This document shows positions 3,446-18,274 of a stretch of 20,668 nt of DNA, piece after piece. The translations under genes and the position numbers were made by a program. A model generated the notes under the pieces. That model was given only the letters and a program-made list of their open reading frames with translations, did not search any database and had not been told where the DNA came from. The stretch is taken from the IMG/VR virus record IMGVR_UViG_3300028394_000366, positions 1-20,668 of that record; one strand, written 5' to 3'. Origin of the DNA: a virus. Every line of letters begins with the position of its first letter. Within the stretch, counting starts at the first letter, position 1.

Positions 3446-3847
3446 TTATTCTTCTTCTTTGTCTTCCCCGTCCGATAAAAGTTCTTCCATACGGCTTTCG
3501 TTGCCTACTTCAGCATAAAACTCATAGTTATCGTCATCGGTTAAATAGTAAATTATGTAAACACTCAAATTTTCTTCTAAATCTAATATAACTTCATCTC
3601 CATCAGGATCAGCATCGTAAAGTGCTGGCATATCATAACCATATGCACTCAACACTTTACGAATGCGTTGTAAACCGGATTCGGGAGATAGTAGTAAATC
3701 ATTCAAGTCTTTATTTAAACGATTGTTGATTTCAGTTTGTGACTGATTAGCACCAATATTATCAAATGGCACTTCTTTAGCAACAATGGGTTGGCTATAA
3801 TGCATTTCTGCATTTGCCAACTCATTTAAATATTGACTGAATCGCAT
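3446..3847 (-). CDS. acidic protein with capsid-targeting-like N-terminus
   Basis: This 133-aa acidic protein starts MRFSQYLNELANAEMHYS. The first ten residues fit the pattern shared with four other proteins here (hydrophobic at 3, 6 and 7, and LxE at 7-9), which resembles the T4 capsid-targeting peptide with a prohead protease cut after Glu9. The rest includes a globular-looking stretch (LLSPESGLQRIRKVLSAYGY, then LSVYIIYYLTDDDNYEFYAE) and a Glu/Asp-rich tail (GEDKEEE). It overlaps the upstream structural-type gene by one base. I do not recognise a family. Packaging inside the head is an inference from the N-terminus only. Confidence 0.75.
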   Translation of the reverse strand: MRFSQYLNELANAEMHYSQPIVAKEVPFDNIGANQSQTEINNRLNKDLNDLLLSPESGLQRIRKVLSAYGYDMPALYDADPDGDEVILDLEENLSVYIIYYLTDDDNYEFYAEVGNESRMEELLSDGEDKEEE

Positions 3848-4449
3848 TAACTGTCTGGATAAATGATATCGTCAGATCCGTCACCAACCATAGAACCCAT
3901 AGCAACTAAGGTTTCTGTGTGAACACGATTTGCACGACCGCCCATGACAATAGTAAATGATCCGTTACCTACAGCAGCACTATATGCAATAGCTGGAGTA
4001 TTTGCATAGAATCCAGGATTATCAATTACAATTGAAGTAATATATTGAGCTGTATTAACAACTACGTTTGCTCTTGCTTCTACTAATGGATTTGTAACAC
4101 CACCAGTTTGACGAGCAGCAATATTGCTAAGACCTTTGTTACCACCTGTGAAGATGATTGTGCCGTTAGCGCCAACGGCACCAGTATTTGCAGTAATGGA
4201 TACGATTGGACCCATGCCTGCTTTTCTTAGTACCCAACCTGCGTGAGTTGAAGATTTACCATCAGAACCAAGAATACCTTTTTCTGTTGGGTCAACTCCA
4301 AAAACACCTACGGCTGCGCCTGGTACATGAAAACTTGCTTTTGTGTTAGCATAAAGCGTTCCTTGTGTGTTTGCAGAAAGGCCTAAACCTCCAGTTCCTG
4401 CAAACTTTGGTGCACCGTTAGATGCATCAGTATTCGTCCATAAAGACAT
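3847..4449 (-). CDS. putative virion structural protein
   Basis: This 200-aa protein is rich in Gly, Ala, Thr and Asn with almost no charged helices. It starts MSLWTNTDASNGAPKFAG, a start I know from proteins of marine T4-like phages that are thought to be structural. Repeated short beta-type segments (ITANTGAVGANGTIIFTGG, YITSIVIDNPGFYANTPAI) suggest a beta-sandwich or fibre-like surface protein. AAGGAG lies seven bases before the ATG and a T4-type late promoter is at 4485-4492, so it should be made in quantity late in infection. The exact role (head decoration, tail or fibre) cannot be told. Confidence 0.7.
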   Translation of the reverse strand: MSLWTNTDASNGAPKFAGTGGLGLSANTQGTLYANTKASFHVPGAAVGVFGVDPTEKGILGSDGKSSTHAGWVLRKAGMGPIVSITANTGAVGANGTIIFTGGNKGLSNIAARQTGGVTNPLVEARANVVVNTAQYITSIVIDNPGFYANTPAIAYSAAVGNGSFTIVMGGRANRVHTETLVAMGSMVGDGSDDIIYPDS

Positions 4450-4484
4450 ATTTTTCTCCTTGTTTTATATCCGGTTTGTTATTA

Positions 4485-4492
4485 TATTTATG
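4485..4492 (-). promoter_or_regulatory. T4-type late promoter
   Basis: The minus strand reads CATAAATA, seven of eight matches to the T4 late consensus TATAAATA, with AT-rich sequence around it. It lies in the 55-base gap between the 695-aa and 200-aa genes. Predicted transcription starts near 4479, leaving about 30 bases of leader with AAGGAG before the ATG at 4449. No -35 box is expected for gp55/gp33-dependent late promoters. Confidence 0.6.
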
Positions 4493-4504
4493 CTTCAGTC
4501 ACTA

Positions 4505-6592
4505 TCATACATTTCTTGTTATCGAATTTGACAACACAGGATCTGCCTGAAATTTGTCTTCTGATGCAGATTTTTTCTTGTCTTTGGCAGTTTTAACTGC
4601 ATCACGGACAATAGAAGCCTGTTTCGATTCTTTGATACCTTTTTTCTTCATGGCCATTTGCATACCTCTGTGAGCTGCATCTTTGGCCATTGATTGTGCT
4701 GTGTGTACAGCACCAGATTTATCTTTTACAACACCATTTGATTTTTTGTATGGACCATCAAAAGGTGGTTTGTTAGCATCATCTGCCTTCTTTTGACGAG
4801 CTTGAATAGAGTTATTGTAATTTGGTTCATCCATAGGTTTAAATGCCTCTTTCATATGACCATATTTCTTTTTGTACCAGTCTGGTGTTCCACTTGTTTT
4901 ACGGAAATGTCTTACTGTTGCAGAATCATTTGCTTGGTCACGATACTTGTTTTCAGCAGTAGTGTTGTGTGACTTCATTGCTTCAGCGGCAGCGTGTGCA
5001 TCTTTGGCAATATGAACTAATTCAGCATCAGACTTCTTGTGATACTCATGTCCTTCTAAAGGATGGCGTTGAGATGGACGGCCTTCTTGTAAAGGTGTAT
5101 CATCAATTTCAACAGAGTCTCCAAGATTTTGTCCAGGCCGAGCAGATTTGTAATATGCTGCAGGTGAACTCATATCAATCTTTTTTTCTGGAGTTTGTTT
5201 TACTACAGGGTTGGCTTTATTGTATGCCGTTTTAATACCTACACTTAATTTTCTTTTTTTGTCCGGTGAGGCTGAAGGATATGCCTTATGACCAGCACGC
5301 ATGTATGCGTTTAATTTATCCTTAGATAACTCATCTAAAACTTCTTCTTTCATTTCAGAGTACATATAATCTGCCGCAGTTTGGATATAGTCAGTAGCAA
5401 GAGTAATCTTAGATTGAACCCATTCAGGCATATCAGTATCTGGTTTCAACATATCTTTAATCATTTCACCACATCGTATTAGTGTTGCCAATTGATTCAA
5501 GGCCATATCACCTTCATAACCATACTCTTGTTCATCTTTTGCTTCTGTGGCCAATCTTTGTTTAGCTAAAGACTTTGTTATTCCGTGTTTCTTAACAAAT
5601 GAAGTCTTATCTAATACATCCAAATCACCTTTGACTTGAGGCATAACAATTTCAGATATTTCTTTGAATCTTTTTATCATAGTCTTACTTCCTTTTTTAG
5701 CAAGACCATCTGGCATCTCTTGGGTAGTTGGATCATCACCAACTTCAGATGCTTCTGAAACAGATTTCCATCCACCACCTTTAGATTTGTACCACTTTGA
5801 TGCCCAACCATTTGCATAGGCAGAAGGATAAACATCAAACTTAGATTTTGCTTGAGCAATAGCTCTTGACCACAATTCTGGATTAGTAGGTTTATTTTTT
5901 TCGTTTATTTGTTCCATATTTTCATTTACCTTACTTTTAACATTGATTGGTGCGCCTTGTCTTTCGGCATTTGGATCTTGTTGTCTTTTTCTTCTTACAG
6001 CAGAGGCTCTTTCTTTTTTACTTAAAGACGCTCTTAGTCCTTGTGACATGCATTTGGGTTTAGGTTCACCAGGTTCTCTTGCACAAGGACCAATTGCTTC
6101 GCCCTTACTATTGATTCTTTTCCAATCACCTTTTGGATCAGTTTTACTGAACCACTTTCGTAAGTCTTCTTTGAGTTCTGCTCTTCTCTCATCATTAGTT
6201 TTACGATTTGGACTATCTGGATTTTTATAAGGAGTTTTTCTAAATCCTTCTTTGTCGTAATTACCAGATTTCTTTTTTGCAATTGCAGTAGCAGCCGCAA
6301 TTGCAGCCGCAGCAGATTCATTCATACCACCATGAGTTTCACACATGCCACAATCTGGACATACATGTTCCATCTCAACGCTTTCATTCTGTTTCTTTTT
6401 ACCTGCACAATGAGCCTTTTGACTGAATCCTTTAGGGTGGGAGCAATTAATACTACTTTTGTATTTTTGACTCCAACCTTCTTCCATGTCTTCTTCTTTT
6501 ACACAAGAACCAGGAGAATAAGGCGTTTTACCTGGTTTTGGTTTGTAACCAGGCCAACACCTCCCCTCTAAAAAATCAGAAAACTTTTTCAT
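4505..6592 (-). CDS. large mosaic protein of short phage modules, probable head-internal protein
   Basis: This 695-aa, Lys-rich protein is built from short modules in tandem. It contains CWPGYKPKPGKTPYSPGSC (12-30); NCSHPKGFSQKAHCAGKKK (49-67); a zinc-knuckle-like CPDCGMCETHGG (78-89); a WKRINSKGEAIGPC module (157-170) with a basic follow-on; a DUF5872-like module PELWSRA to KWYKSKGGGW (238-275); a helical module ending near YMYSEMKEE (about 305-417); HPLEGHEYHKKSDAEL to DWYKKKYGH (510-579); and a C-terminal DKFQADPVLSNSI. I know several of these from marine T4-like phage proteins of unknown function. The N-terminus MKKFSDFLEG resembles the capsid-targeting peptides of its neighbours. LKE142, INE231, LDE421, LQE503 and IKE655 are possible prohead protease cuts. 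The ATG is one base after the previous stop and has only a weak SD. Confidence 0.8.
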   Translation of the reverse strand: MKKFSDFLEGRCWPGYKPKPGKTPYSPGSCVKEEDMEEGWSQKYKSSINCSHPKGFSQKAHCAGKKKQNESVEMEHVCPDCGMCETHGGMNESAAAAIAAATAIAKKKSGNYDKEGFRKTPYKNPDSPNRKTNDERRAELKEDLRKWFSKTDPKGDWKRINSKGEAIGPCAREPGEPKPKCMSQGLRASLSKKERASAVRRKRQQDPNAERQGAPINVKSKVNENMEQINEKNKPTNPELWSRAIAQAKSKFDVYPSAYANGWASKWYKSKGGGWKSVSEASEVGDDPTTQEMPDGLAKKGSKTMIKRFKEISEIVMPQVKGDLDVLDKTSFVKKHGITKSLAKQRLATEAKDEQEYGYEGDMALNQLATLIRCGEMIKDMLKPDTDMPEWVQSKITLATDYIQTAADYMYSEMKEEVLDELSKDKLNAYMRAGHKAYPSASPDKKRKLSVGIKTAYNKANPVVKQTPEKKIDMSSPAAYYKSARPGQNLGDSVEIDDTPLQEGRPSQRHPLEGHEYHKKSDAELVHIAKDAHAAAEAMKSHNTTAENKYRDQANDSATVRHFRKTSGTPDWYKKKYGHMKEAFKPMDEPNYNNSIQARQKKADDANKPPFDGPYKKSNGVVKDKSGAVHTAQSMAKDAAHRGMQMAMKKKGIKESKQASIVRDAVKTAKDKKKSASEDKFQADPVLSNSITRNV

Positions 6593-6593
6593 C

Positions 6594-7454
6594 TCAATCT
6601 TTCATCGCCTGTTTGTTGGCGGTGGCATACATCACGTTTTTAGCACGATCACCATAACGCTCTTTGAATCCGGCCATACCTTTTTTCATCGACTTAACAA
6701 TGTGTTCACGTTTATTCATTTCACCGCCAGTCATGTGACGTTCTTCAATGTCAACTTGGTCAATACCGTTCATTAAATCTGCATCAATAACTTGAATGTC
6801 TTGTTCAACTGATTCTTGCTTAACTGCTTGAACAGATGCTTTTGCAACATCAGCTTGTGGTTTAGTACCAGCTGCACGTTTCTTTGCATCTTCTAAGTCT
6901 TTTACGAATTGTTCTGAATCAGGTTCTTCAATAATCAAATCTTCTTTTTTAATTGATTCAAAGAAAGTCTTTAGACCACCTTCTTTGTAGATGGCAATCA
7001 TCTCAGACATTTTCTTTTTCTTTTTCTCTGCATCAATAGCAGCCAATTCTTTATTTTTTGGTCCGTCTAATACATCAACTGCATGTGGTTCTGGCTTAGA
7101 TGCACCATATGAACGACCTTGAACTTTAGTTGATGGCAAATCAGCCATCTTAACTTCATCAATTTGTTCTTCTTCTTTAACGACTTCTTTTTTATATTTT
7201 GCAGCTAAAGCACCCTTATCAGCTGGAGTGCCACCACCTGCAGCTACTTGACCTTCTTTTGCTGGTGTCATTTCTTCAATCTTTTTCTTTTCACCTTTCA
7301 AGATTTTAAAGTCTTGACCATCAATTTTACCATTGTGGTTCTTATCAAGCTTAACTTGACCGCCTTTTAATTCTTCTTGAATTACTGGTAAACCAGCCAT
7401 GATTCGTGCAGCAACATCTGCAACATCACGGATTTGTTTATTATTTGAGTACAT
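6594..7454 (-). CDS. Lys/Glu-rich protein with EF-hand-like loop, probable head-associated protein
   Basis: This 286-aa protein begins MYSNNKQIRDVADVAARIMAG and then carries VIQEELKGG (IQE at 25-27, a possible prohead protease site). Next is a canonical calcium-binding loop at 37-48, DKNHNGKIDGQD: Asp37, Asn39, Asn41, Gly42, Asp45, Asp48. A long charged, low-complexity middle follows. The C-terminal module (MNKREHIVKSMKKGMAG to ERYGDRAKNVMYATANK, about 245-282) is common at the ends of marine T4-like phage proteins. AGGAG precedes the ATG. It stands between the DUF6321 gene and the 695-aa mosaic in the same direction and shares their composition, so a common role in the head is likely but unproven. 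Confidence 0.75.
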   Translation of the reverse strand: MYSNNKQIRDVADVAARIMAGLPVIQEELKGGQVKLDKNHNGKIDGQDFKILKGEKKKIEEMTPAKEGQVAAGGGTPADKGALAAKYKKEVVKEEEQIDEVKMADLPSTKVQGRSYGASKPEPHAVDVLDGPKNKELAAIDAEKKKKKMSEMIAIYKEGGLKTFFESIKKEDLIIEEPDSEQFVKDLEDAKKRAAGTKPQADVAKASVQAVKQESVEQDIQVIDADLMNGIDQVDIEERHMTGGEMNKREHIVKSMKKGMAGFKERYGDRAKNVMYATANKQAMKD

Positions 7455-7484
7455 TAATTTTCTCCTAGTTTAATTTTTTTATTC

Positions 7485-7781
7485 TTAGCAATTCCAACGG
7501 CGTAATGCTTTATTGATTGGTGAATCAGGATCTCTTGCATTTTCTGGATTAGTCAATCTCTTTTTCATACCACTCATTCTACTGCAAAAAGATTTTCTTC
7601 TGTTTGCATCTTTTGAACCTGCTTTTAGTTTAGATGGATCTTTTGTTACCGCAGTCTTTAACTTTGAGCCTGGATTTTCTCTACGATAGGCATTAACTGC
7701 CTTCTGTGAAAGACCATCTGTTTTATCGGCTTTATTGACTTTACTCCAGTCTTCGGAAATAAAAGATTTAAATGATTTCAT
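7485..7781 (-). CDS. DUF6321-like small basic protein with capsid-targeting-like N-terminus
   Basis: This 98-aa basic protein starts MKSFKSFISEDWSKV, which matches the T4 internal-protein leader MKTYQEFIAEA in length and in the positions of its aromatic and hydrophobic residues and Glu10 (cut motif ISE). The remainder (KTDGLSQKAVNAYRRENPG, then FCSRMSGMKKRLTNPENARD, then NKALRRWNC) matches what I recall as DUF6321, a small Arg/Lys-rich module found in phages and large DNA viruses. The charge would suit DNA binding inside the head. It overlaps the upstream 744-aa gene by four bases (ATGA). Its function is unknown. Confidence 0.8.
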   Translation of the reverse strand: MKSFKSFISEDWSKVNKADKTDGLSQKAVNAYRRENPGSKLKTAVTKDPSKLKAGSKDANRRKSFCSRMSGMKKRLTNPENARDPDSPINKALRRWNC

Positions 7782-10012
7782 ATGAATTTCTTCGCTTTGA
7801 AAGTTTTAAGGTTGATACCAACTCTTTTTAATTCACCTTCTTTTTGGTCACCAATTGATGCACCAGTTTCATCACCAGTCAACTCTTTAATAGTTTTCTT
7901 TTTTGGATCACGATTATATTTGCCGCCAGTTGTCGCAACAGTATTACTTACACCACGACTAAAGTTTTCACCAGAAGATGACATTGATAAACCGGGTTCA
8001 ATACCCATGTCTATAGATTCAATCACTTTTTCTTTCTGTTTTGCCCTAATTTCGGAGAGACTGATTGTTTTCTTACTGGCGAGCGTGTTTGTGGTTTCGG
8101 TGTAATAACCGGAGTCTTTACTTCCACTGGTGTCTGCACTTCCAACACTTGTTCTGGTACTTCCACTTTCGGCAAAGTAACTTGCACCGGTACTTCTACT
8201 GGAACTTCCTGTTTGACTTCCGTAACTGGCTCTTGCACCGGTTTCTTCGTGAATAGGTTCTTTAGATATTTCAACATTTTCATTCTCCTCTTTGATTTTA
8301 ATGGCATAACCATTTTTATATTTAATTACTTCACCATCGTGAGTGTGTGCATGTTTAGCCGCAGAACGGCGTAACAAAAACTTATACACATCACCACTAG
8401 GTTTACGCAGAAGTTTTACCTTCTTTCCTTCGAACAATTCAAGTATATCATCATTCAAGAATTCTTCTTTAACAGTTTTCTTTGCAGAAGTTCCTGTAGT
8501 TGGAACTTTTGGATTTGCAATTGGTTCTTTAGGCACTTCAACAAGTTTATCATGCACAGAACGATATGTGACTTTGCCCTGTTTGCCGTATCTACCAAAA
8601 CCGAAGTATTGTAATCCTAATTTTCTTGCTTGCTCAGCAGCTGCTGAATCAGGATGAGGTGGTTTCTCTGCACCATTTTTTGGTACAGGTAACGTATCTT
8701 TCTTTTCTAACTCTTGTGCAATCCACTCATCTGCTTGTTTTGTTTTTGGTGGTCTTGCAATGAATTCTTTGATGCCCTTAAAGAGTTGCATTAGTTCTTC
8801 TTTTTTTGCCTTTACAACAGCAGGATTGGCACTTCTCAAGTCTTCAGAGTTATCAAACTCCATATAATTTGCACCAAACAACTTTGAATACTCTGCTCTA
8901 GCTCTCTGTACATTGTCCCATTTATCTTTACGGATGTCTTCTGGCACTGTACGACCACCACGCATACCACGTTCTATGTTTCTCTTTTTAGATACTTCAT
9001 CGTGTGTATTAACTACAAGCATAGATGTTTCATATCCAGCTGATTCTAGTTTTTGTTTAATCTTCTTAGTCTTTTCAATGTCATCGCCTGTGCCATTGAT
9101 AATCAAACCATTTCGGCCTACAATTGCAAGACGTTGACGTAATTCTGTAATGTTCTTTGCACGACCACGAACAAGGTTTCTTTTTTCTTCTTCTGACGCA
9201 GGCATCTTCTTATCAAGACTTTCTTTGTCCATCAGAAACTCAAGTGCCTTATCAGAATTCATTTCAACTAGACCATGACCAGCAAGTGTATTGTCTAGTA
9301 CATAGTCTTTGCCTGAACCAGGACCACCAGCTAAAAACACGGCTTTAAAAATGCCATGATCGTGTACACCTTCTGTTAGAAAGATATCATCGAAATCATC
9401 ATTGATATCTTCTTTGACTTGCATACCTTTACGAACATCATGGTACATTTCTTTTGCATGATGTTCTGGTACATGAGATGGAATACCTTTTCTGAATTCT
9501 TTGAAATTACCAGTTTTTGCATGACCTCTCATCTTAGATGCAGACATGCCTGTAGTACCCTCAGCATCAGGATCACGTTCACCTGCATTGTGTACTGTAA
9601 TCTTTTTGAAGTTATACAACGCACCTTCGTGTGTGCCATTGTATTGTGCAAGTTTCTTTTTGTATTCTGGAACCCGATCCGATCCAGCAACCATGTGCAA
9701 GTGAGTTACACCTTTTTTGTGTAACTCAGCTGCATGTTGTAGAAAGGTGGGTTTTTCTTTGCTTGACGTAGAAAGATTCGTATCAGGAAAGAATCTTTTA
9801 GCGTGTTTGAGTTTTTGTTCTGCTGATAAAGGGTTTTTATCTTTATCTTGAGTATGAGATAGAACAACACTGTGCTCGCCGCTGTGTTGTTTAGAGACTT
9901 CTTTGACTTTGTTAACAACCAATTGATGGCCAGTTGTTACCGGATTTGCTCGCATAAAAGTAAAGGTGTGATGTACCTCTTTAGCTTCTCTCAAAAAATC
10001 TCTAAAATTCAT
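7778..10012 (-). CDS. nucleotidyltransferase - P-loop kinase mosaic protein, probable packaged polyprotein
   Basis: This 744-aa protein is modular. (1) Leader MNFRDFLREA with LRE at 7-9. (2) Cytidylyltransferase/NMNAT-like domain, about 15-195: FMRANPVTTGH (19-29) is the HxGH-type motif, then AGSDRVPEY, and GMSASKMR (155-162) replaces ISxTxxR. (3) P-loop kinase domain, about 220-415: Walker A GGPGSGKD (229-236) with Asp where Ser/Thr is usual, followed by Arg-rich segments (IERGMRGGRTVPEDIR). (4) Module KLGLQYFGFGRYGKQGKVTY (464-483). (5) Module GKKVKLLRKPSGDVYKFLL (529-547). (6) Ser/Gly/Thr-rich linker (about 595-645). (7) C-terminal tail after TIKE710. FLTE214-G and LFE528-G lie exactly between modules. 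NTase followed by kinase recalls NadR, but substrates are unknown. A GAGG is six bases before the ATG. Confidence 0.85.
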   Translation of the reverse strand: MNFRDFLREAKEVHHTFTFMRANPVTTGHQLVVNKVKEVSKQHSGEHSVVLSHTQDKDKNPLSAEQKLKHAKRFFPDTNLSTSSKEKPTFLQHAAELHKKGVTHLHMVAGSDRVPEYKKKLAQYNGTHEGALYNFKKITVHNAGERDPDAEGTTGMSASKMRGHAKTGNFKEFRKGIPSHVPEHHAKEMYHDVRKGMQVKEDINDDFDDIFLTEGVHDHGIFKAVFLAGGPGSGKDYVLDNTLAGHGLVEMNSDKALEFLMDKESLDKKMPASEEEKRNLVRGRAKNITELRQRLAIVGRNGLIINGTGDDIEKTKKIKQKLESAGYETSMLVVNTHDEVSKKRNIERGMRGGRTVPEDIRKDKWDNVQRARAEYSKLFGANYMEFDNSEDLRSANPAVVKAKKEELMQLFKGIKEFIARPPKTKQADEWIAQELEKKDTLPVPKNGAEKPPHPDSAAAEQARKLGLQYFGFGRYGKQGKVTYRSVHDKLVEVPKEPIANPKVPTTGTSAKKTVKEEFLNDDILELFEGKKVKLLRKPSGDVYKFLLRRSAAKHAHTHDGEVIKYKNGYAIKIKEENENVEISKEPIHEETGARASYGSQTGSSSRSTGASYFAESGSTRTSVGSADTSGSKDSGYYTETTNTLASKKTISLSEIRAKQKEKVIESIDMGIEPGLSMSSSGENFSRGVSNTVATTGGKYNRDPKKKTIKELTGDETGASIGDQKEGELKRVGINLKTFKAKKFI
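8023..8277 (-). CDS. possible overlapping gene: Pro/Val/Glu-repeat protein
   Basis: Inside the 744-aa gene, in another minus-strand frame, an 84-codon ORF starts at the ATG at 8277-8275 with AGGAG seven bases upstream, better than most SDs here. It reads MLKYLKNLFTKKPVQEPVTE, continues with PVEVPVQV and VEVPEQVLEV type repeats, and ends in a basic tail (SPKLGQNRKKK). In the same stretch the host frame is a Ser/Gly/Thr linker with many AGT, ACC, GCC and TCC codons, unlike the rest of that gene. A short GGAAGT-type DNA repeat explains both low-complexity readings, so the ORF may be an accident. Without homologues I treat it as a candidate only. Confidence 0.35.
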   Translation of the reverse strand: MLKYLKNLFTKKPVQEPVTEVKQEVPVEVPVQVTLPKVEVPEQVLEVQTPVEVKTPVITPKPQTRSPVRKQSVSPKLGQNRKKK

Positions 10013-10033
10013 GCTCCGCCTCTACAGCAGTTG

Positions 10034-10055
10034 TTAATACTCTATTTAGTATTAA
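10034..10055. repeat. 8-bp perfect hairpin between methyltransferase and nucleotidyltransferase genes
   Basis: TTAATACT (10034-10041) and AGTATTAA (10048-10055) are perfect inverted repeats around a 6-base loop. On the minus-strand RNA the 5' arm contains the stop of the methyltransferase gene, and the next ATG lies 21 bases after the 3' arm. There is no T-run after it, so it is not a classic terminator. Arm and loop together include ACTAAATA, a weak (6 of 8) late-promoter match. Confidence 0.5.
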
Positions 10056-10735
10056 TTAGTCCTGATAACTAAAACCTCATCAGATTTAACATATTCATTT
10101 GGATATTCCTGTGGTTCTTTTAAACCAATGTCACCTTTATCAAATACCACAATACTATCATAGACTGACATACATTTTGTGTGTAACGTATAATAATCTG
10201 CATCAATTTGACCTTTAGTGTGTGATGCATTAATTCTATCAACCATCGTTTTAGCAACATTATTGATAGAATCTGGATGACTAATACTTCCACCATGTGA
10301 TGGCCAATAAGCTGCGTGTGTATCTTCAATGAAGTATACTGCTTCTTTTGCAATACGCGGATATAACACTTCAAATGTTTTTCTTACATGGTCAACGTGA
10401 TGACTGCCATCGTCTAATACTACATCAAATTGGCCAAATTCTTGAATCAAACTAGCAAGAAACTTCGGATCAGACTGATCGCCAATACGAACATGTACGC
10501 CATTTTCTTCGTGTTCTTTACATGCAGGATTGATATCAATACCAACAATCACACTATCAGGATGAAAGTACTTCTTCCACATCTGCAATGAACCGCCATT
10601 GAGAATACCAATCTCAAGCATCTTAATTGGTTTCTCTGTCAATGGTTTAAAATGTTTCTCATACACCCAAAAGTAATGAGTCCATTTAGTAATCTTTTTG
10701 CCGGTGTTATTTAACCAATATTCTTGTAAGTCCAT
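10052..10735 (-). CDS. class I SAM-dependent methyltransferase
   Basis: This is 227 aa from the ATG at 10735-10733, which has GAGG five bases upstream and lies just after the previous stop (10743). A longer in-frame start at 10807 would overlap that gene by 65 bases and has no good SD. The SAM-binding motif I is MLEIGILNGGSL (39-50), motif II ends in VGIDINP with Asp67, and FDVVLDDGSHH (103-113) gives the acidic and His residues found in Methyltransf_24 and sugar O-methyltransferases. FIEDTHAAYWPSHGG follows. It is the last gene of the sugar island, so the substrate may be a sugar or a glycan end, but this is inferred from context. A cephalosporin-hydroxylase-like variant of the same fold is the main alternative. 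Confidence 0.85.
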   Translation of the reverse strand: MDLQEYWLNNTGKKITKWTHYFWVYEKHFKPLTEKPIKMLEIGILNGGSLQMWKKYFHPDSVIVGIDINPACKEHEENGVHVRIGDQSDPKFLASLIQEFGQFDVVLDDGSHHVDHVRKTFEVLYPRIAKEAVYFIEDTHAAYWPSHGGSISHPDSINNVAKTMVDRINASHTKGQIDADYYTLHTKCMSVYDSIVVFDKGDIGLKEPQEYPNEYVKSDEVLVIRTN

Positions 10736-10742
10736 AATATCC

Positions 10743-11435: not shown

Positions 11436-12414
11436 AATTTTTCTTCATTGTTTCTGTCATCAACTTAGATATTGTGATGTTTGGCATCCAACCTAGTTCC
11501 CACAGTGCTTTTACATAAGAACCTAAAGAAAACTTATTGACTTCTCTTTCAACTGCATCTTTAGATATTGATAAATTGTAACTATACCAATATTCTTTTG
11601 AAGGCATAAATTCATACTTTAAATCACCAAATGCGATAACGGCAGATTGAACAACGTCTTTTACAGATGTTAATGTGCCTGTGCATACATTATAGATTTG
11701 TCCTTTTGCTTCTGGTTTATTGACACACAATTCAATCAACTTCACCACATCATCAACATGAACATAATCCCGTTTCTGTTCACCATTTGAGTAGAATGTG
11801 CATGGTTCTCCATTAGCAACTTGCTTTACGATATAATTTAAAAGTGGTGGTGATGGACGATGCACATCTTGCCTTGGCCCAAACACGTTGAAGAATCTTA
11901 GTGTCACAATATCCATATCATAGTTGGTAATATAAGATTGTACTACATCTTCCATTAGTTTCTTTGATAGTGGATAGAACAATGTTGGTTTAACTTGTAG
12001 ATTCTCAAGGAACGGTGCCTCTTCTTCAGTATTACCTTCATAGATGGCCGATGTACTTGCAACAATGGTTCGTTTGACACCAGCATCTTTGGCTGCTTTG
12101 AGAACAGAGGCAGTGCCTGCAACATTGACACTCAAACACTCAGCAGGATTAGATTCACATTCAGGTAAAGATGTTAATGCAGCCAAATGCACAATAACAT
12201 CAGTCTTGTTAAACTGCAAAAGTTCTGTTAGTTTGATTGTTTCACGAATATCAAGTGCAACTGCATCACAGACTTGCTTGTCATTATCATATAGGTTCTC
12301 CATGTAACCATGGCTAAAATCATCTAGTGCAACGACTATATGACCATTCTTAGTCAATTCAATGCATAAGGTTGAACCAATACCACCTGCACCACCAGTA
12401 ATCATTATATTCAT
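11416..12414 (-). CDS. NAD-dependent sugar-nucleotide epimerase/dehydratase (extended SDR)
   Basis: This 332-aa protein is a full-length extended SDR. The NAD-binding motif is GGAGGIG (7-13), with Asp31 in VALDDFSHG to hold the adenosine ribose and VIVHLAALTS (74-82) next. The catalytic residues are Ser/Thr in VASTSAIYEG (118-127) and YPLSK (Tyr147, Lys151). RFFNVFGPRQ follows, with substrate-loop residues after it. This is the UDP-glucose 4-epimerase/WbpP/dTDP-glucose dehydratase superfamily; the exact reaction cannot be told. It acts on nucleotide-activated sugars in the cytoplasm and fits the neighbouring nucleotidyltransferase. It overlaps the coiled-coil gene by four bases. Confidence 0.88.
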   Translation of the reverse strand: MNIMITGGAGGIGSTLCIELTKNGHIVVALDDFSHGYMENLYDNDKQVCDAVALDIRETIKLTELLQFNKTDVIVHLAALTSLPECESNPAECLSVNVAGTASVLKAAKDAGVKRTIVASTSAIYEGNTEEEAPFLENLQVKPTLFYPLSKKLMEDVVQSYITNYDMDIVTLRFFNVFGPRQDVHRPSPPLLNYIVKQVANGEPCTFYSNGEQKRDYVHVDDVVKLIELCVNKPEAKGQIYNVCTGTLTSVKDVVQSAVIAFGDLKYEFMPSKEYWYSYNLSISKDAVEREVNKFSLGSYVKALWELGWMPNITISKLMTETMKKNYELITR

Positions 12415-12596
12415 GCTAATTTATCCACGTTTTGGCCATTTCTATTCATTTCACGATTCAATTTCAACCTATTTTCTTCAAGTTGTTTCAATCTATCATC
12501 AAGACGCCTTCTCTCCATAATTAATGCATCATGCTGTTTTTCTATTTGATGTTTTTCAAGTTGCCGAACTTGTTGTTGTACTCTTTCTATTTTCAA
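12411..12596 (-). CDS. 61-aa coiled-coil protein
   Basis: This short, highly charged protein is predicted to be one continuous helix: VQQQVRQLEKHQIEKQHDAL followed by RRRLDDRLKQLEEN with Leu/Ile at heptad spacing. It overlaps both neighbours by four bases (ATGA), which argues that it is a real, coupled gene and not noise. It has no membrane segment. A role as an adaptor or oligomerisation piece for the sugar enzymes is possible but not supported by more than position. Confidence 0.7.
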   Translation of the reverse strand: MKIERVQQQVRQLEKHQIEKQHDALIMERRRLDDRLKQLEENRLKLNREMNRNGQNVDKLA

Positions 12597-13618
12597 AGCA
12601 TTTCTCCTAGTGTATCAGTATCTCGTTTAAGATTAATTGCAACTGCGGATGGATATGGATTAGAGTTTGCATAATCATTAATCACAACTCGGCAAGAATG
12701 ATTTGCTTCCATGATTAGAATATACTCTTTAAATCCCAACTCATCTAAAATATTTCGTGTGTAACTCTCATACTTATTCTTACGAGCAGTTACAAACACC
12801 AGTTTGCAACCACGGGATTGTTCTTTCAATAATACAGCCACATTACCCACAATCGGTTCATATGGTGCATCGTGAAAGTCTTTAGTCTTAATTATTGTGC
12901 CGTCAATGTCGCAGAAGTATGTTGGCTTGTCATTGTACTTGAACCAATCATCGGCAGTACCCACATCAACAAAGTTCTCAACTTCTTTTTCTGTAAATAC
13001 TCGGTCATTTGAAATCATGTAATCAATAATGTTAGATACAAAAATTTCTGAAGTAGAACTGTCTTTTAGTGTTTCAAACGTATCAACATATTCACCAATA
13101 CTCGCAAACTGATAACCACCAACACAGAAAGAATCACTTACAATTTGTTTTTCAACAACAGAAGTAATGATACCTTGTTCATTAGTAATGGTGTAACTCT
13201 TTGCAGGTGCATTACGAATATCAGGATTCTTTGACAACTTAGAAACATAAATTGCATTACCATCAATCAAATCTGTATCATAAAACCCATCACAATCTTT
13301 AATTAACATCGGTGAAACTGATGTGAAGGAATACTCAGCCTTCATTATGGCCTGATAGACTGTATCAGCAGGACCACTGGTCGGTTCATCTAGTACAACG
13401 ATGTTAACTTTGTCACCAAAGGCATCACGCAATTTATTCTCTGCGTTAAACTTTTCATTATGTTGTTTTAAAATAGCAATTGTGATGTTGTGTTTGCCAA
13501 TAAAATGTTTGGCTGCATTCTCAATCATCAACTTGCCGCTGTAATCAGTCAACAAATATTTTGGTCTTAGGTTAGGAAACCTAGTAGATAGACCCGCACA
13601 TGGCATAATTATTTCCAT
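12593..13618 (-). CDS. sugar nucleotidyltransferase fused to HAD-type phosphatase
   Basis: This 341-aa bifunctional protein has two domains. Residues 1-225 are a GT-A nucleotidyltransferase: MPCAGLSTRFPNLRPKYLL (5-23) has the Gly, Arg and Lys of the NTP-binding loop, SGPADTVYQA (81-90) follows, and KDCDGFYD (107-114) holds the metal-binding Asp. VGGYQFASI and FVDVGTADDW follow, as in sugar-1-phosphate nucleotidyltransferases. Residues about 233-330 are a HAD domain: DIDGT (237-241) with the nucleophile and acid Asp, FVTARK (275-280), and VVINDYANSNPY (311-322) with the motif IV acid. HAD domains commonly remove phosphate. Together they could make an NDP-sugar in two steps. The gene overlaps the APH-type kinase gene by ten bases. 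Confidence 0.85.
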   Translation of the reverse strand: MEIIMPCAGLSTRFPNLRPKYLLTDYSGKLMIENAAKHFIGKHNITIAILKQHNEKFNAENKLRDAFGDKVNIVVLDEPTSGPADTVYQAIMKAEYSFTSVSPMLIKDCDGFYDTDLIDGNAIYVSKLSKNPDIRNAPAKSYTITNEQGIITSVVEKQIVSDSFCVGGYQFASIGEYVDTFETLKDSSTSEIFVSNIIDYMISNDRVFTEKEVENFVDVGTADDWFKYNDKPTYFCDIDGTIIKTKDFHDAPYEPIVGNVAVLLKEQSRGCKLVFVTARKNKYESYTRNILDELGFKEYILIMEANHSCRVVINDYANSNPYPSAVAINLKRDTDTLGEML

Positions 13619-14355
13619 AATCTTCTCACTTCTCTCATTAAATATTCTTTATCTTTTTCATTAGTAGTATAAGGCAAAACTCGCATCAACATTAGAATCA
13701 GTAAATAGTGATTCTCATTATGTACAAAATTGTTTAGTTTGTCTATAATGAGATACAGTTTTGAATCAAGATATACATCATCATTTCTTATGAACCACTT
13801 ACACACAAGGTCTTGTCTCAACTTAGCTAAATCAAATACAAACGAATCAAACTCAGTTGTCAATGGATCTATCAGTACAAATTTATCATTCTTTGTATCA
13901 TACAAAATGTTTTCAAGTGTAAAGTCACCGTGATACTCAGATGCAGGTAGAATCTTAGGTAACTTATCTATCAATTCATCTGCCGTAAAAGGCATCTCAA
14001 ATTTTGTAAAATCAAACTTAGATAACTTATTTCGGTATGTTTCAGTATAGTCTTTTTCGTATGTATTCTTTGATAGATTATACACTATTTCCTGAATAAA
14101 GTCAACTAGTTTATTGGCCTTATTAAAGGACAAATACTTCTTCATCTCTAGGCAAGAGATGTATTCCATATCATAATAGTTACCATAAATCTCATATATT
14201 TTAGGTAAGTTGATATTGTAATTGGAAAGAACATCGTATCTTTCCAAGTTGCGGGCAATATCACCAGTTTTTCTTACGAAGATTTTATCATCATCTTGCA
14301 TTAAAGAAACATGACTGGCAGAATGGCCTTTCAGTTCTTTTAATGTTTTTACCAC
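13609..14355 (-). CDS. APH/choline-kinase-like small-molecule kinase
   Basis: This 248-aa protein has the catalytic loop YHGDFTLENILYD (141-153) with Asp144 as base and Asn149, and a metal-binding FVLIDPLTTEFD (159-170) with Asp163. Lys29 in KIFVRKTGD may be the ATP-binding lysine. This is the APH superfamily (aminoglycoside, choline and sugar kinases). It overlaps the nucleotidyltransferase gene by ten bases. A kinase followed by a nucleotidyltransferase recalls choline kinase/CTP transferase (LicA/LicC) or the MurNAc kinase/uridylyltransferase pair, so I infer it phosphorylates the sugar or alcohol that the next enzyme activates. The substrate is unknown. Confidence 0.75.
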   Translation of the reverse strand: MVKTLKELKGHSASHVSLMQDDDKIFVRKTGDIARNLERYDVLSNYNINLPKIYEIYGNYYDMEYISCLEMKKYLSFNKANKLVDFIQEIVYNLSKNTYEKDYTETYRNKLSKFDFTKFEMPFTADELIDKLPKILPASEYHGDFTLENILYDTKNDKFVLIDPLTTEFDSFVFDLAKLRQDLVCKWFIRNDDVYLDSKLYLIIDKLNNFVHNENHYLLILMLMRVLPYTTNEKDKEYLMREVRRLWK

Positions 14356-15053
14356 TTTGCGAAATCATCTCTAACTAATGAGTGTCTTGTACCGTTGTGA
14401 GCGCCAGGACCAAATGGATGGTTCATATTGCAGTACACGAGATTCTCACCGACTAAATCAGATACTTTCCAATTCATACTCATCATTTCTTCACCAATCA
14501 TTGTAACACCGACATCATAGAATTCATCTATACGATTAAACACGTTACAATACTTATCCATGTTGCGTGACGATGAGAAAGCAAACTGATCGTTGCCAAA
14601 GTCTCTATTCGGTGTCATTCGACAGTTTGGAATGTACAACTTAGAATTGTCTAGTTCTTCAAATGGAATTTCAGTATTCAATGCAAAATCAAAACGTGAA
14701 CGAATGACCCAATCGAAGTTCATTCCAAATTCTCTTTCATATTTCACCTTTAAAGAGTTGGCTTTATTCAACGAATAGAATTGTGCCCATGTAGACAACG
14801 CAGGATTCTTTACTTTCCAATTTGGTTGTGGTGGTGGTACTCTTGTGTACTTTGATAAGTCTGGTTCTTGTGGCGGTTCTTTTAACCACAACTGACTGTT
14901 TGTATATAAGTTTAGTATCTCAGTTTCACTCACAGTATTCCATGTGTGAAAAAATACTGTAACATTGTGTTTGTCAAGTAAATTCTTTTTTACAAATGGA
15001 AAAGCCTTGTCAAAAGACCTTGCTTGACCAGATAGGCATAATGCAACTCTCAT
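14349..15053 (-). CDS. putative glycosyltransferase (SGQARSF type)
   Basis: This 234-aa protein starts MRVALCLSGQARSFDKAF and has VFFHTWNT (33-40), QFYSLNKANSLKVKYE (91-106) and WVIRSRFDF (115-123). This set (SGQ-x-R, H-T-W, QFYS-x-x-K, R-x-R-F/Y-D) is what I know from GT-A-like phage and capsule proteins. RxRFD would act as the metal or nucleotide motif. It ends close to the kinase start (seven-base overlap). It is similar in plan to the next protein, which has MAGHIRTF and SRYDTH at matching places. The donor and acceptor are unknown; head, tail or host surface glycans are possible acceptors. Confidence 0.65.
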   Translation of the reverse strand: MRVALCLSGQARSFDKAFPFVKKNLLDKHNVTVFFHTWNTVSETEILNLYTNSQLWLKEPPQEPDLSKYTRVPPPQPNWKVKNPALSTWAQFYSLNKANSLKVKYEREFGMNFDWVIRSRFDFALNTEIPFEELDNSKLYIPNCRMTPNRDFGNDQFAFSSSRNMDKYCNVFNRIDEFYDVGVTMIGEEMMSMNWKVSDLVGENLVYCNMNHPFGPGAHNGTRHSLVRDDFAKW

Positions 15054-15054
15054 A

Positions 15055-15765
15055 TCATCTCTTTATATGAACGGGTAAATCAATCGCAATGTATGGTGTA
15101 TCAGTTTCAAAGAAGTTTCTCATACACAACATATGTGGACAGTATCGTCTTTCATCATGTAACATGATATCTCTTTGACCATTTTCCCAAAAGAATTTAA
15201 TACTCAACCATTCTTTTGTTTTCTTACTGAATCTTTTTGACATAATTTCTTCAGCTCTTGGGTAGAAGAAATACTTATCGGCATATTTCCATGGCACAAT
15301 TGCAAAGATATCAGACACCATTCCATATTGTTCATTCGTTGGTGTAACCACAACATCAGAATAATCTTTTACTAGATTGCGTAATTTGAATGGGTATAAA
15401 TGTGTATCATATCTACTGAATATAATATTATCATATTCTTTTTCAATCAACTCAAATGCTTTTCTGCGAGCAAAGTGCATTGATAATGTAACGTGATTTC
15501 TATCATTAACCATCAAGTCTTTAGGATTCTTCTTTGCAATTCTTTCTTCTGCATCAAAGAATTGTTCTGCATAAGTTTCGTTCTTTTCAACTAACCATTT
15601 TACTGGTTTCAACATTTTAATAACAAAATCAATTTCTTCTTGATTGCCTTCATCCCAAATAAACAAATAAACATCTAATTCATTTTGTTCTTTAAAATGT
15701 ACAACTTCATCGGCAATATCTTTGAATGTTCTGATATGCCCAGCCATTACTAATGCATTAGTCAC
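15055..15765 (-). CDS. putative glycosyltransferase (AGHIRTF type)
   Basis: I set the start at the GTG at 15765-15763, giving 236 aa beginning MTNALVMAGHIRTFKD. AGGAG lies seven bases upstream, and the start overlaps the previous gene by eight bases. An ATG at 15810 would overlap by 53 bases and add residues without homologous look; an ATG at 15747 has no SD. The core has LDVYLFIWDEGNQEEI, the motif FSRYDTHLYP and VVVTPTNEQYGMVSDIFAI. The layout parallels the following SGQARSF protein, suggesting duplicated, diverged transferases. Enzyme activity is inferred, not shown. Confidence 0.65.
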   Translation of the reverse strand: MTNALVMAGHIRTFKDIADEVVHFKEQNELDVYLFIWDEGNQEEIDFVIKMLKPVKWLVEKNETYAEQFFDAEERIAKKNPKDLMVNDRNHVTLSMHFARRKAFELIEKEYDNIIFSRYDTHLYPFKLRNLVKDYSDVVVTPTNEQYGMVSDIFAIVPWKYADKYFFYPRAEEIMSKRFSKKTKEWLSIKFFWENGQRDIMLHDERRYCPHMLCMRNFFETDTPYIAIDLPVHIKR

Positions 15766-16594
15766 CGTACTTCTCCTCGATGATCTTACGCCATTCTGGA
15801 ACTCTATCATACTGATGAACGATGTAGTATGGTGTTCCAGTTGATGTTACCACTATGTCACCAACTAACTTAGGAGTTCTCTCTAATAGATATGGCCTGA
15901 ACTCACCAATCTTAGATGGATCAGCCGTAGTTCCTAATTGACATGCCCAACCATCTTCTGAACAAGTATACTTACATGTATCAAGATATGGATGCATTGA
16001 TATCATAAAGTTAAAAGTTGATTGGTCACAGATTGGGATTGGTTTACCCAAACATGAAGTAAAGATATTGATTGCAATATCTCTCATTGCAGTACCAGAA
16101 CCTGCAAGAACACCTACGTTATAAATTTCATTTTTTCTATAAATGTCATGCAAGAATGGTCCATAGGTTTCTAAGAGATTCTTATCACCCCACGGTTCAT
16201 GTTTGTATAACAAACTTTCAGATGAGAATACAAGATTTTCAGAAATAAGATTAGCTTCTAACCAATCAATTGGATTCTGTTGAAAAATAACGTCTTTAAC
16301 ATCGGTTGTAATTACATACCGATATTCATTATTGCGTAGGTGATTGTAGATGTGAGCAAAGCGCTCAACGTGGATTGGTAATTGAGATTCATATTTCAAA
16401 TTACCATCGGCATCTTTATTGATTGCTACAACTGTAAATCCAGATGCAACAACCTGTTCAACTGTGTTCTTGTCACAATTAAAAAGAACCAGTACTTTGT
16501 CACCTTCAAAGCCTGATTTGTTGATTGAGTTAACCCAATACTTTAATTTATCCCAATCGTAGTTGGTGCTTGCGCCTATAATCAAATCTTTCAT
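15758..16594 (-). CDS. glycosyltransferase (GT-A fold, DxxD type)
   Basis: This 278-aa protein begins MKDLIIGASTNYDWDKLK and has YRYVITTDVKDVIFQQNP (91-108), where the Asp98/Asp101 strand is typical of GT-A enzymes that bind a nucleotide-sugar through a metal. IYNVGVLAGSGTAM, DQSTFNFMISMHP and a C-terminal YIVHQYDRVPEWR complete the pattern I know from capsule and phage transferases of this group. It is the first gene of the sugar island. CTGGAG stands seven bases before the ATG, preceded by an AT-rich possible late promoter. Confidence 0.75.
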   Translation of the reverse strand: MKDLIIGASTNYDWDKLKYWVNSINKSGFEGDKVLVLFNCDKNTVEQVVASGFTVVAINKDADGNLKYESQLPIHVERFAHIYNHLRNNEYRYVITTDVKDVIFQQNPIDWLEANLISENLVFSSESLLYKHEPWGDKNLLETYGPFLHDIYRKNEIYNVGVLAGSGTAMRDIAINIFTSCLGKPIPICDQSTFNFMISMHPYLDTCKYTCSEDGWACQLGTTADPSKIGEFRPYLLERTPKLVGDIVVTSTGTPYYIVHQYDRVPEWRKIIEEKYGD

Positions 16595-16607
16595 AATATA
16601 CTCCAGT

Positions 16608-16615
16608 TATTTATT
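16608..16615 (-). promoter_or_regulatory. possible T4-type late promoter before the sugar island
   Basis: The minus strand reads AATAAATA (seven of eight to TATAAATA) in the 30-base gap before the first glycosyltransferase gene. Predicted transcription would begin near 16602, inside the SD, leaving almost no leader, so the site may be chance in AT-rich DNA. Confidence 0.3.
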
Positions 16616-16624
16616 TAGTTGATA

Positions 16625-16906
16625 TCAGTCTCTTGTAAGATTTAAAATCTTTTGTATTTGTGTTTCTAAAATTGGTTTACGATTTGGCCATTTAATAATT
16701 GGTTGATCGGATGTCTTCAGTAATTTAGTTAAGAATGGTAGAATAATCTTTTCTACTTCATGTAGACGAGCTTTGTACTCATCTACTGTTTCTTCTTTCT
16801 CGGCAATAACCGAGTTATATTCTTCTTCGTCAGTTGCCGTGAATCCAAAATCATTATCACCATATTCGGCCATAATTTCAGTTAGATCATATTTCTTTTC
16901 TGCCAT
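16625..16906 (-). CDS. conserved marine T4-like phage protein, unknown function
   Basis: The product is 93 aa from the ATG at 16906, which has GGAAG six bases upstream. A longer in-frame start at 16954 reads through the neighbouring gene and is rejected. It starts MAEKKYDLTEIMAEYGD, has an acidic DFGFTATDEEEYNSVIAEKE, a helical middle and a C-terminal IKWPNRKPILETQIQKI. I recall this combination (DFGFxAxDExEY and WPNR) as a conserved protein of marine T4-like phages with no known role. It overlaps the 51-aa gene by 20 bases and marks the border between conserved phage genes and the sugar island. Confidence 0.8.
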   Translation of the reverse strand: MAEKKYDLTEIMAEYGDNDFGFTATDEEEYNSVIAEKEETVDEYKARLHEVEKIILPFLTKLLKTSDQPIIKWPNRKPILETQIQKILNLTRD

Positions 16907-17042
16907 TTTTTTCTTCCGTTGCGTTTTCGTATCCCCGAGCAAAATCTGATGCATCGGCTTCTAGACCTTCTTGGTTTAAATACGGATTACTATACTTTTT
17001 ATTATTCAAAGATAATTCATAACCTTCTTCATATGGTGCCAT
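16887..17042 (-). CDS. 51-aa small protein, unknown function
   Basis: This short gene lies between the DUF6267-like gene and the 93-aa gene. It starts at the ATG at 17042-17040, overlapping the previous stop by one base (TAATG), with GGAG six bases upstream. It reads MAPYEEGYELSLNNKKYSNP, then YLNQEGLEADASDFARGYEN, and ends ATEEKNGRKEI with TGA at 16889-16887. It has no membrane segment. The DFARGYE ending resembles the C-terminus of small soluble phage proteins, but no family is recognised. SD, coupling and fit in the gap make it a real gene. Confidence 0.7.
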   Translation of the reverse strand: MAPYEEGYELSLNNKKYSNPYLNQEGLEADASDFARGYENATEEKNGRKEI

Positions 17043-18274
17043 TACTTACTCCAATTTTTAGCTGCGTTAAAGTTAGCATGAGCAAATTCTAGTCTATCAA
17101 TTAACTTAACTGCATTACCTTTTAATTTATCTACTGCCACAAAACCTTCTGGATTAGTCACTCTGTAACCATCATCTGTACGAAGGAATGTACCAGTAAC
17201 TTGTTTTAGTTGTTGTAACTTCTTAACAATCATATTCTTTGCATCAACAACATAATTCATCATATCAAAAATTCTAACTAAGTCAGTTCTTGAATTGCGA
17301 AAGAAACGCATAATCTCTGTCTTCTGTAAAGACTTCTTATGTTTAGTATCTTCTTTCTTTGCATCAGCAATATCTTTATTTAGCTTCGCTTCAACCCAAC
17401 GAATCAATTCTGTTGTGTGTGCTTGTGTGTCTCTAATCTTTAGACCTTCACGCACTTTTGTGTTATTGAAAGTCTTGATGTATGTTAGAATAACATCACT
17501 TGCAGCTATTCTATTTAGCGACAAAGAACTAATTGACTGTAATGTTCTACCAGCAACAGATAGAATGCCTGTAATTTGTTTTGTTTCTTCTTCAGTGAAT
17601 GATGCAGTACCAGATGCATCAACAAAATATGCATCACGAAACCAAACATCTTTAGTTGTTGTTAGATTCTTAATATCTATGTTGAATGATGCCTTCATAT
17701 CAGAGAATGTTTTACCTGTGTATGAAGTATGAAAGACAATACCCATTTGTGCAGATGTCATTGTCTTTGCAAGTTTGGAATCTGATGGCACAGCGTATAC
17801 AATTGTGTTTGGTTGAAACGTAATGTATTCTTGGCCATCAATATTCTTTTCTGTGATATCACCTTTAGCAAACATCATATCGCCTTGCAGAACACCCTTG
17901 ATGCCTAATTTAGGCAAATATCGCAATGCAACTTTCAGTTTAGCATTTAAACCTTCACTTGAATGGTTGTTATCAATATCTTCATCGGTGTAATTCAACT
18001 TAGGGTTTGCGTTGAATACGCCTTTAGTACCAACAAAGAACTTACCATTGTCTGGATTAATACCGCAGAATACAGCAGGTGCACCATCCCATTTTGTAGT
18101 AAGATTTACTTTAGATGTAGAATGGCCTGCAAGCATATCTCGCAATGATTGAAGAAAGTTAATAGTATCACGAGCGCCATTGACACCACGATTCAGTATC
18201 TCATCTTCAATGTGTTCAAGGTGCAAATTAGCACCTTCTTTTTTCGATTCGGTTAAAAATTGTGCGAAGTTCAT
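17042..18274 (-). CDS. DUF6267-like protein with ligase/nucleotidyltransferase motifs and capsid-targeting-like N-terminus
   Basis: This 410-aa protein starts MNFAQFLTESKKEG; LTE at 7-9 would be a prohead protease site. NLHLEHIEDEILNRG and TINFLQSLRDMLAG match what I know as DUF6267 of marine T4-like phages. After VNLTTKWDGAPAVFCG, KWDG (61-64) looks like motif I (KxDG, nucleotidyl-lysine) of ATP-dependent DNA/RNA ligases. GTKGVFN (82-88), KGVLQGDMMF (126-135, motif III-like with Asp for Glu), PEGFVAV (375-381, motif IV-like) and VKLIDR (389-394, motif V-like) follow in order. A mainly helical insert (about 230-350) separates III from IV. It could seal nicks or RNA. The ATG overlaps the previous stop by one base and has a weak SD. 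Confidence 0.75.
   Translation of the reverse strand: MNFAQFLTESKKEGANLHLEHIEDEILNRGVNGARDTINFLQSLRDMLAGHSTSKVNLTTKWDGAPAVFCGINPDNGKFFVGTKGVFNANPKLNYTDEDIDNNHSSEGLNAKLKVALRYLPKLGIKGVLQGDMMFAKGDITEKNIDGQEYITFQPNTIVYAVPSDSKLAKTMTSAQMGIVFHTSYTGKTFSDMKASFNIDIKNLTTTKDVWFRDAYFVDASGTASFTEEETKQITGILSVAGRTLQSISSLSLNRIAASDVILTYIKTFNNTKVREGLKIRDTQAHTTELIRWVEAKLNKDIADAKKEDTKHKKSLQKTEIMRFFRNSRTDLVRIFDMMNYVVDAKNMIVKKLQQLKQVTGTFLRTDDGYRVTNPEGFVAVDKLKGNAVKLIDRLEFAHANFNAAKNWSK

Follow-up and report, generated by a model that had tools for sequence, protein, structure and literature searches.

The 20,668-nucleotide stretch of viral DNA analysed here in full, IMGVR_UViG_3300028394_000366 (hereafter the window), is a 20.7-kb contig; its genes have relatives in Kyanoviridae phages, the closest isolates at the protein level being Methylophilales phage Melnitz, Pelagibacter phage HTVC008M, C48C1 and DLP6. 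An earlier note on this DNA had pointed out that five of its proteins begin alike, and had proposed that their common N-terminus is a sorting tag like the capsid-targeting sequence (CTS) of phage T4. All five open reading frames (ORFs) are present with the claimed N-termini, and all are on the minus strand. They encode a 133-amino acid (aa) protein (3446..3847; leader MRFSQYLNE|L, codons 3821-3847, the bar marking the predicted cut) for which no Pfam family scores above the cut-off; a 695-aa multi-module protein (4505..6592) with a variant leader, MKKFSDFLEG (6563-6592), directly before its RCWPGYK module; a 98-aa DUF6321 protein (7485..7781; PF19846, E 1.3e-14; leader MKSFKSFISE|D, 7752-7781); a 744-aa putative cargo polyprotein (7778..10012), with leader MNFRDFLRE|A (9986-10012) followed by three modules; and a 410-aa DUF6267 protein (17042..18274; PF19782, E 1.3e-113; leader MNFAQFLTE|S, 18248-18274). 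The bodies behind these leaders are unrelated, comprising DUF6267, DUF6321, a nucleotidyltransferase with a Zeta_toxin-like kinase, modules of the 695-aa protein that include phage-only families, and the 133-aa protein with its lack of a Pfam family.

The resemblance between the leaders stood up to scrutiny, but the pattern originally written for them did not. As coded, with an optional residue before the Glu, it fits only two of the five proteins, and its x(1-2) before the first Phe was therefore dropped; three of the five leaders have no residue between position 2 and that Phe. The corrected motif, M-(0-4)-[FYW]xx[FYW][LIVMF]xE, is present in four of the 27 window genes, compared with a mean of 0.015 expected from shuffled N-termini, and a count of four never arises in 20,000 shuffles, which provides the enrichment over shuffled starts that the earlier note had asked for. 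LxE is found in four of the five leaders. The 695-aa protein, which had rightly been singled out as an exception, still has F4 and F7 but lacks the LxE part, with FLEG instead of FLxE. Across its family the RCWPGYK module is preceded by N-terminal MKSFKSFIAE or MKKFSDFLEG, or by an internal VKSFSDFLEG, and because FIAE and FLEG forms stand before the same module we regard the 695-aa start as a family variant of the common leader.

We then asked the same question of ~260 loci from IMG/VR that encode relatives of the window proteins, comparing start-like Met codons (those that lie close to an ORF's 5' end and have a good Shine-Dalgarno sequence) with control Met codons deep inside ORFs and without one. 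The motif follows 70 of the 1174 start-like Met (1.0 expected) and 5 of the 6903 deep ones (5.6 expected, i.e. chance level), so that it is ~70-fold enriched, and at translation starts only. Since the loci were picked via the window proteins, the absolute motif rate is not a genome-wide one; the start-versus-internal contrast is independent of that choice. The shuffles and the internal-Met controls rule out chance as the source of the motif, which is common to about a dozen unrelated families. Among 120 distinct leaders, Glu is at position 9 or 10 in 114, and residue 2 is Lys in 77 even though the pattern does not require it. Within families the leader is retained while its letters change. It is present in 45 of 47 distinct DUF6267 15-mers, the remaining two being truncated matches, with F/Y and L/I swapping at motif positions, Ser, Ala or Gly after the Glu, and M1, F3 and E9 invariant in 28 homologues; the DUF6267 protein of the isolated phage Melnitz has it as MINFSKYITE. 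In relatives of the 133-aa protein it is kept or re-coded (MRFREYLQE, MKKFADYLTE, MRFSEYIRE).

The comparison with T4 is close. T4 internal proteins start MKTYQEFIAE, as the earlier note had stated, and we see MKTYQEFIAE|A in those of 100 and 193 aa; the corrected pattern recovers T4 internal proteins with 3 matches versus 0.24 expected. The 98-aa leader MKSFKSFISE agrees with this sequence at all four key positions, residue for residue, and the 133-, 744- and 410-aa leaders are one residue shorter than the T4 CTS. According to mutants of T4 IPIII, targeting depends on positions 4 and 7, and processing requires positions 8 and 10 (PMC9026906). The two functions can be uncoupled, since with Asp at position 10 the protein is still targeted but no longer processed (PMC9026906). 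The homologue of the prohead protease gp21 that the earlier note had wanted to see located is found as Peptidase_S77 in all nine long relatives and in 11 of 11 phage records, and gp23 is also encoded in 9/9 long relatives. At the position of the T4 site FLTE|A, the major capsid protein (MCP) has LxE before a small residue or Val in seven of the nine (MLTE|A, LLNE|T, LLNE|A, LLSE|V, MLYE|T, YLNE|A and ILQE|T). The remaining two relatives have the closely similar FLYE|S and YITE|Q, and phages S-CREM2 and S-SCSM1 have LLTE|A and FLAE|A. Judged by these N-terminal sites, the leader LxE matches the phages' own putative head-processing site. The presence of gp21 in the relatives and this likeness support only indirectly the claim that gp21 cuts the leaders.

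If the leader is a head tag, tagged proteins should turn up in virions, and here the published proteomes of related cyanophages are informative. The virion proteome of S-CREM2 is available (PMC10665884), and we ran the tests for S-CREM2 and S-SCSM1 on annotated gene sets. The motif occurs within the first 30 residues of 7 of the 219 S-CREM2 proteins, including all four non-lysis virion enzymes (hypergeometric 4e-7): a S-adenosylmethionine (SAM) hydrolase (MKDFDSFLEE), an APH-like kinase (MKRFDAFLTE), a cytidylyltransferase (MKNFSSFLTE) and a Cas9-annotated protein (OR473000 7704-10313, minus strand) with FASFMAE|A at residues 19-25, which on this sequence may be head cargo too. The virion protein gp136 is also tagged (MQTFSMFFSE), and in gp13 (MKDLHSFLTE) Leu replaces the first aromatic residue. 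Taking all S-CREM2 virion proteins together, the association is weaker (5/52 with motif versus 2/167 of the others, p 0.009). In S-SZBM1, the tagged cytidylyltransferase _140 (MRFRQFIIE) was detected in virions; its neighbour _141, an untagged DUF6267 protein, is absent from the list of 30 virion proteins. In S-SCSM1 the annotation counts the NMN adenylyltransferase (NMNAT), which starts MKSFLQFLKE, among the virion proteins. A kinase has been reported from S-CRM01 virions (PMC10665884); this is most likely g130, which starts MISFDQFLSE. The proposal that tagged proteins ride in the head thus gains support from tagged homologues and other tagged proteins in the virions of S-CREM2, S-SZBM1 and S-SCSM1, phages other than that of the window.

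Several observations weigh against a head tag. The window record, itself a fragment, contains no gp21, and its 133-aa protein has Leu after the leader Glu, an unusual residue there. Mass spectrometry (MS) of CsCl-purified virions can pick up contaminants, and the S-CREM2 authors could not decide between packaging and contamination (PMC10665884). S-SCSM1 alone shows no association between motif and virion label (1/48 versus 1/234, p 0.31), and was set aside as a second virion test since it is not significant on its own; its labels are GenBank annotation, with 48 labels compared with the 45 proteins stated in the paper. The tagged protein SCSM1_30 of ~105 aa (MKTFKQFMSE) has no virion label in S-SCSM1, and the S-SZBM1 virion list has no protein of the length of its homologue there. 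Many virion proteins are without the motif, as expected for tail proteins, but SCSM1_89, 90 and 92 are without it too. Finally, DUF6267 proteins of S-SZBM1, S-PM2 and S-CRM01, taken as marine homologues, lack the tag, and start MAKNTHLEHLEDD, MATQNKHLEHLEDE and MAKDGKNVHLEHLEDD, respectively. Going by these starts, the tag is gained or lost within a single gene family.

The 744-aa protein carries the leader element at internal positions as well. Module 1 (residues 12-202; 9407..9979, minus strand) starts just after the leader and has a nucleotidyltransferase (adenylyl/cytidylyltransferase) fold, which superposes on phosphopantetheine adenylyltransferase (VIA Z 14.8, root-mean-square deviation 2.8, 153 aligned) and on NMN adenylyltransferases too. 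Module 2 (residues 218-435; 8708..9361, minus strand) is a P-loop kinase (Zeta_toxin, PF06414, E 2.3e-13). Between the two, in a linker with a low predicted local distance difference test (pLDDT) score, is the predicted internal gp21-type site DDFDDIFLTE|G (residues 205-214; 9371..9400, minus strand), with E214-G215 invariant in 27 aligned homologues. A second predicted internal site, FLNDDILELFE|G (residues 518-528; 8429..8461, minus strand), is degenerate in the window and reads FESFLSE, FENFLNE or FQSFLNE in homologues. AlphaFold2 models of the family show a third, small folded module near residues 532-575, and have the modules parted by acid-rich, low-confidence linkers (pLDDT <50). The 744-aa protein consists of several modules, including the Zeta_toxin-like kinase, and no peptidase, ParB or ADP-ribosyltransferase (ART) domain was detected in it.

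In this family the leader motif occurs 1.79 times per protein, versus 0.14 after shuffling, with clusters at residues ~3, ~207 and ~505-525, and 33 of 42 distinct kinase junctions have LxE before Gly, Ala, Ser, Asp or Asn, versus a background of 4.8%. In three of the related loci (L158, L342 and L288) an LxE is immediately followed by a complete inserted module; a DLRKWF module follows MKTFNTFVVE at a protein start and FESLFSE inside L288; and the HTVC008M kinase is a separate gene, starting MIPFILKE|GLYD. Judging by its sequence, the 744-aa protein appears to be a polyprotein of head cargo, and we infer, with moderate probability, that its family is diced by the protease inside the prohead. 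Alternatively, the LxE|G elements could be mere acidic flexible linkers in a protein that is packaged whole, and their acid-rich, low-pLDDT surroundings and the degenerate third site of the window protein (the second internal one) would fit this. The leader and the junction site are also jointly absent in one clade of 12, a clade-level event that makes for a weak correlation between them. The leader-junction association (30/30 versus 4/16), considered as independent evidence, collapses to a single clade boundary on the tree, and is not used as support because the joint loss is one evolutionary event. The density and clustering of the motif, the modules inserted right after LxE and the stand-alone HTVC008M kinase with its LKE|G start argue against simple linkers, which we consider a possible but rather unlikely explanation.

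The leader itself could be a docking tag that carries cargo into the head without processing, leaving LxE uncut and the proteins full length. The Asp10 form of T4 IPIII, which separates targeting from processing (PMC9026906), fits this, and the 695-aa family often has FLEG instead of FLxE. We nevertheless consider this improbable, given that Glu is, with Phe, the most conserved leader residue, that LxE matches the site predicted in the MCP of these phages, and that LxE|G recurs at those 33 of 42 kinase junctions, where a second docking is unneeded. A good deal less probable still is a leader that sends the proteins somewhere other than the head, such as the host nucleoid, the replisome or the membrane, with the virion MS data reflecting contamination by abundant enzymes. 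The cyanophage genes do lie beside the replication genes gp41, gp61 and nrd, and contamination is named as possible by the S-CREM2 authors; however, it would not pick just the CTS-bearing proteins (four out of four S-CREM2 enzymes), it gives no LxE at domain junctions, and the untagged DUF6267 protein encoded beside the tagged S-SZBM1 gene went undetected in virions. That the leaders are a short N-terminal domain inherited from one ancestor, or gene starts that are alike by chance, and in either case have no function, can practically be dismissed: some neighbouring genes could be old duplicates with a common start, but the bodies are unrelated families, the key residues are kept while others vary, the leader changes place (N-terminal in one phage and internal in another for one and the same module), and both enrichment and selective conservation contradict it.

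We therefore return to the T4-type CTS, which we hold to be very probably what the leader is. The earlier idea of a sorting tag agrees with the enrichment at starts only, the unrelated domains behind the leader, the match to the T4 CTS residues and the tagged homologues in virions. Packaging of the tagged proteins is well supported; for these particular proteins, scaffold binding, cleavage and ejection are inferred. The aromatic pair (positions 3/6 or 4/7) would bind the gp22-type scaffold core, so that the tagged protein is built into the prohead; gp21 would then cut after the Glu of [LI]xE, and the mature protein, set free in the DNA space, would leave the head with the genome at ejection. 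The tag would thus serve as a modular cargo label before DUF6267, DUF6321, nucleotidyltransferase/kinase and other unrelated proteins, and a gp21-type element between domains would allow one tagged polyprotein to be cut into separate enzymes in the head. Somewhat on the favourable side of even, we think that Kyanoviridae-type T4-like phages have a modular head-cargo system, in which modules swap between stand-alone proteins with a CTS and polyproteins with CTS/gp21 elements, the protease loads and dices them, and an enzyme kit (nucleotidyltransferase, kinase, DUF6267, SAM hydrolase, Cas9-like protein and others) is delivered at time zero.

The surroundings of the tagged genes, and tagged genes elsewhere, offer some further observations. 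The same gene block encodes two proteins without leader, one of 286 aa (6594..7454, minus strand) whose EF-hand-like loop, DKNHNGKIDGQDF, scores below the Pfam cut-off, and one of 200 aa (3847..4449, minus strand), whose N-terminus resembles, in a comparison made without alignment, cyanophage virion/head proteins encoded at the same place (S-SZBM1_136, S-PM2p148). A sugar/glycan-type block (window ~10052-16594, minus strand; epimerase-, nucleotidyltransferase-, methyltransferase- and glycosyltransferase-like genes, as judged by eye) sits between the cargo genes and DUF6267, and a 371-aa phage protein (19417-20532, minus strand) matches DruA of the Druantia defence system (PF14236, E 4.8e-9). 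DUF6267 has an invariant TTKWDG (KxDG) that resembles the motif of covalent nucleotidyltransferases/ligases; a search for a ligase-like enzyme gave no PDB sequence match, and its model (pLDDT 58) has structural matches only of a non-specific helical kind. In related contigs the leader also fronts, mostly as single examples, a SET-domain protein, an Fe/Mn superoxide dismutase and several unknowns, as well as HAD- and phospholipase-A2-like proteins (weak matches). The dismutase (PF02777, 3.6e-23; start-like Met at 5051 of L345) begins with leader-like MFNFIKYVVE and the SET-domain protein (PF00856, 1.4e-11; 7953 of L340) with leader-like MMRSFVNFLRE. A 169-aa protein in L291 (1085 onward), MKTFSEFITEAL, has no Pfam match and contains a STTYHGTT stretch reminiscent of ADP-ribosyltransferases. 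A conserved 105-106-aa protein (S-SCSM1 44215-44535, S-SZBM1 122311-122628) has a perfect leader, MK(S/T)FK(S/Q)F(L/M)SES-VNISGDFNGNLY. Its start is vaguely like that of T4 gp61.1 (NC_000866 18966-19130, minus strand, 54 aa, hypothetical), which begins CTS-like with MKTFKEFIKEDM and, from this start, may be an unrecognised T4 head protein.

Cyanophage virions repeatedly hold NMNAT/cytidylyltransferase, kinases, SAM hydrolase and Cas9-like proteins, which have been ascribed to packaging or to contamination. With a ten-residue tag that can be read in the sequence, packaging becomes predictable and easier to tell from contamination. The tag also widens the reach of the T4 CTS beyond small internal proteins, to enzymes of an abundant group of aquatic phages. 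It suggests that cargo polyproteins, too, are processed by the prohead protease, and it allows injected effectors and candidates for first-minute anti-defence to be listed from metagenomes. The principle of diverse bodies behind one CTS is not new, having been published for the T-even internal proteins (PMC3012670; PMC9026906). In line with the earlier note, which knew of no published description for these families, the literature that we searched contained no report of the tag on these enzyme families or in cyanophage-type T4 relatives, and no paper on DUF6267. Relative to that literature, the tag on Kyanoviridae-like enzymes, its agreement with virion proteomes and the element between modules are new.

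The nearest known system is the CTS of T4 IPI, IPII and IPIII (Mullaney & Black 1996; PMC9026906, PMC3012670), which likewise is a 10-residue leader with aromatic residues at 4 and 7, an aliphatic one at 8 and Glu at 10 in front of diverse bodies. Unlike those small internal and anti-restriction proteins, the proteins described here are enzymes and multi-domain bodies of Kyanoviridae-like phages, their cleavage is predicted, and the tag recurs inside putative polyproteins. T4 Alt, a packaged ADP-ribosyltransferase, is also a head-borne enzyme, processed by gp21 and injected (PMC9026906); no homology to it was found, and the cargo here consists of a nucleotidyltransferase, a kinase, DUF6267 and others. 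Giant-phage ejection proteins (SPN3US, phiKZ) are head cargo cut C-terminally to Glu in a short motif by a gp21 relative, but belong to a distant group in which, according to the literature, motif and propeptides differ. Polyvalent proteins (Iyer et al. 2017, PMC5512222) are, like the 744-aa protein, phage proteins of several domains for which packaging and delivery into the host are predicted; in the accessible text their processing is put down to peptidase domains of their own and there is no mention of a shared leader, in contrast to the shared N-terminal tag and the predicted gp21-type sites between domains here. Finally, the same or similar enzyme families (NMNAT/cytidylyltransferase and kinases) have been found by MS in cyanophage virions (PMC9602691, PMC9146016, PMC10665884); the accessible parts of these papers propose no packaging signal, and the leader supplies one.

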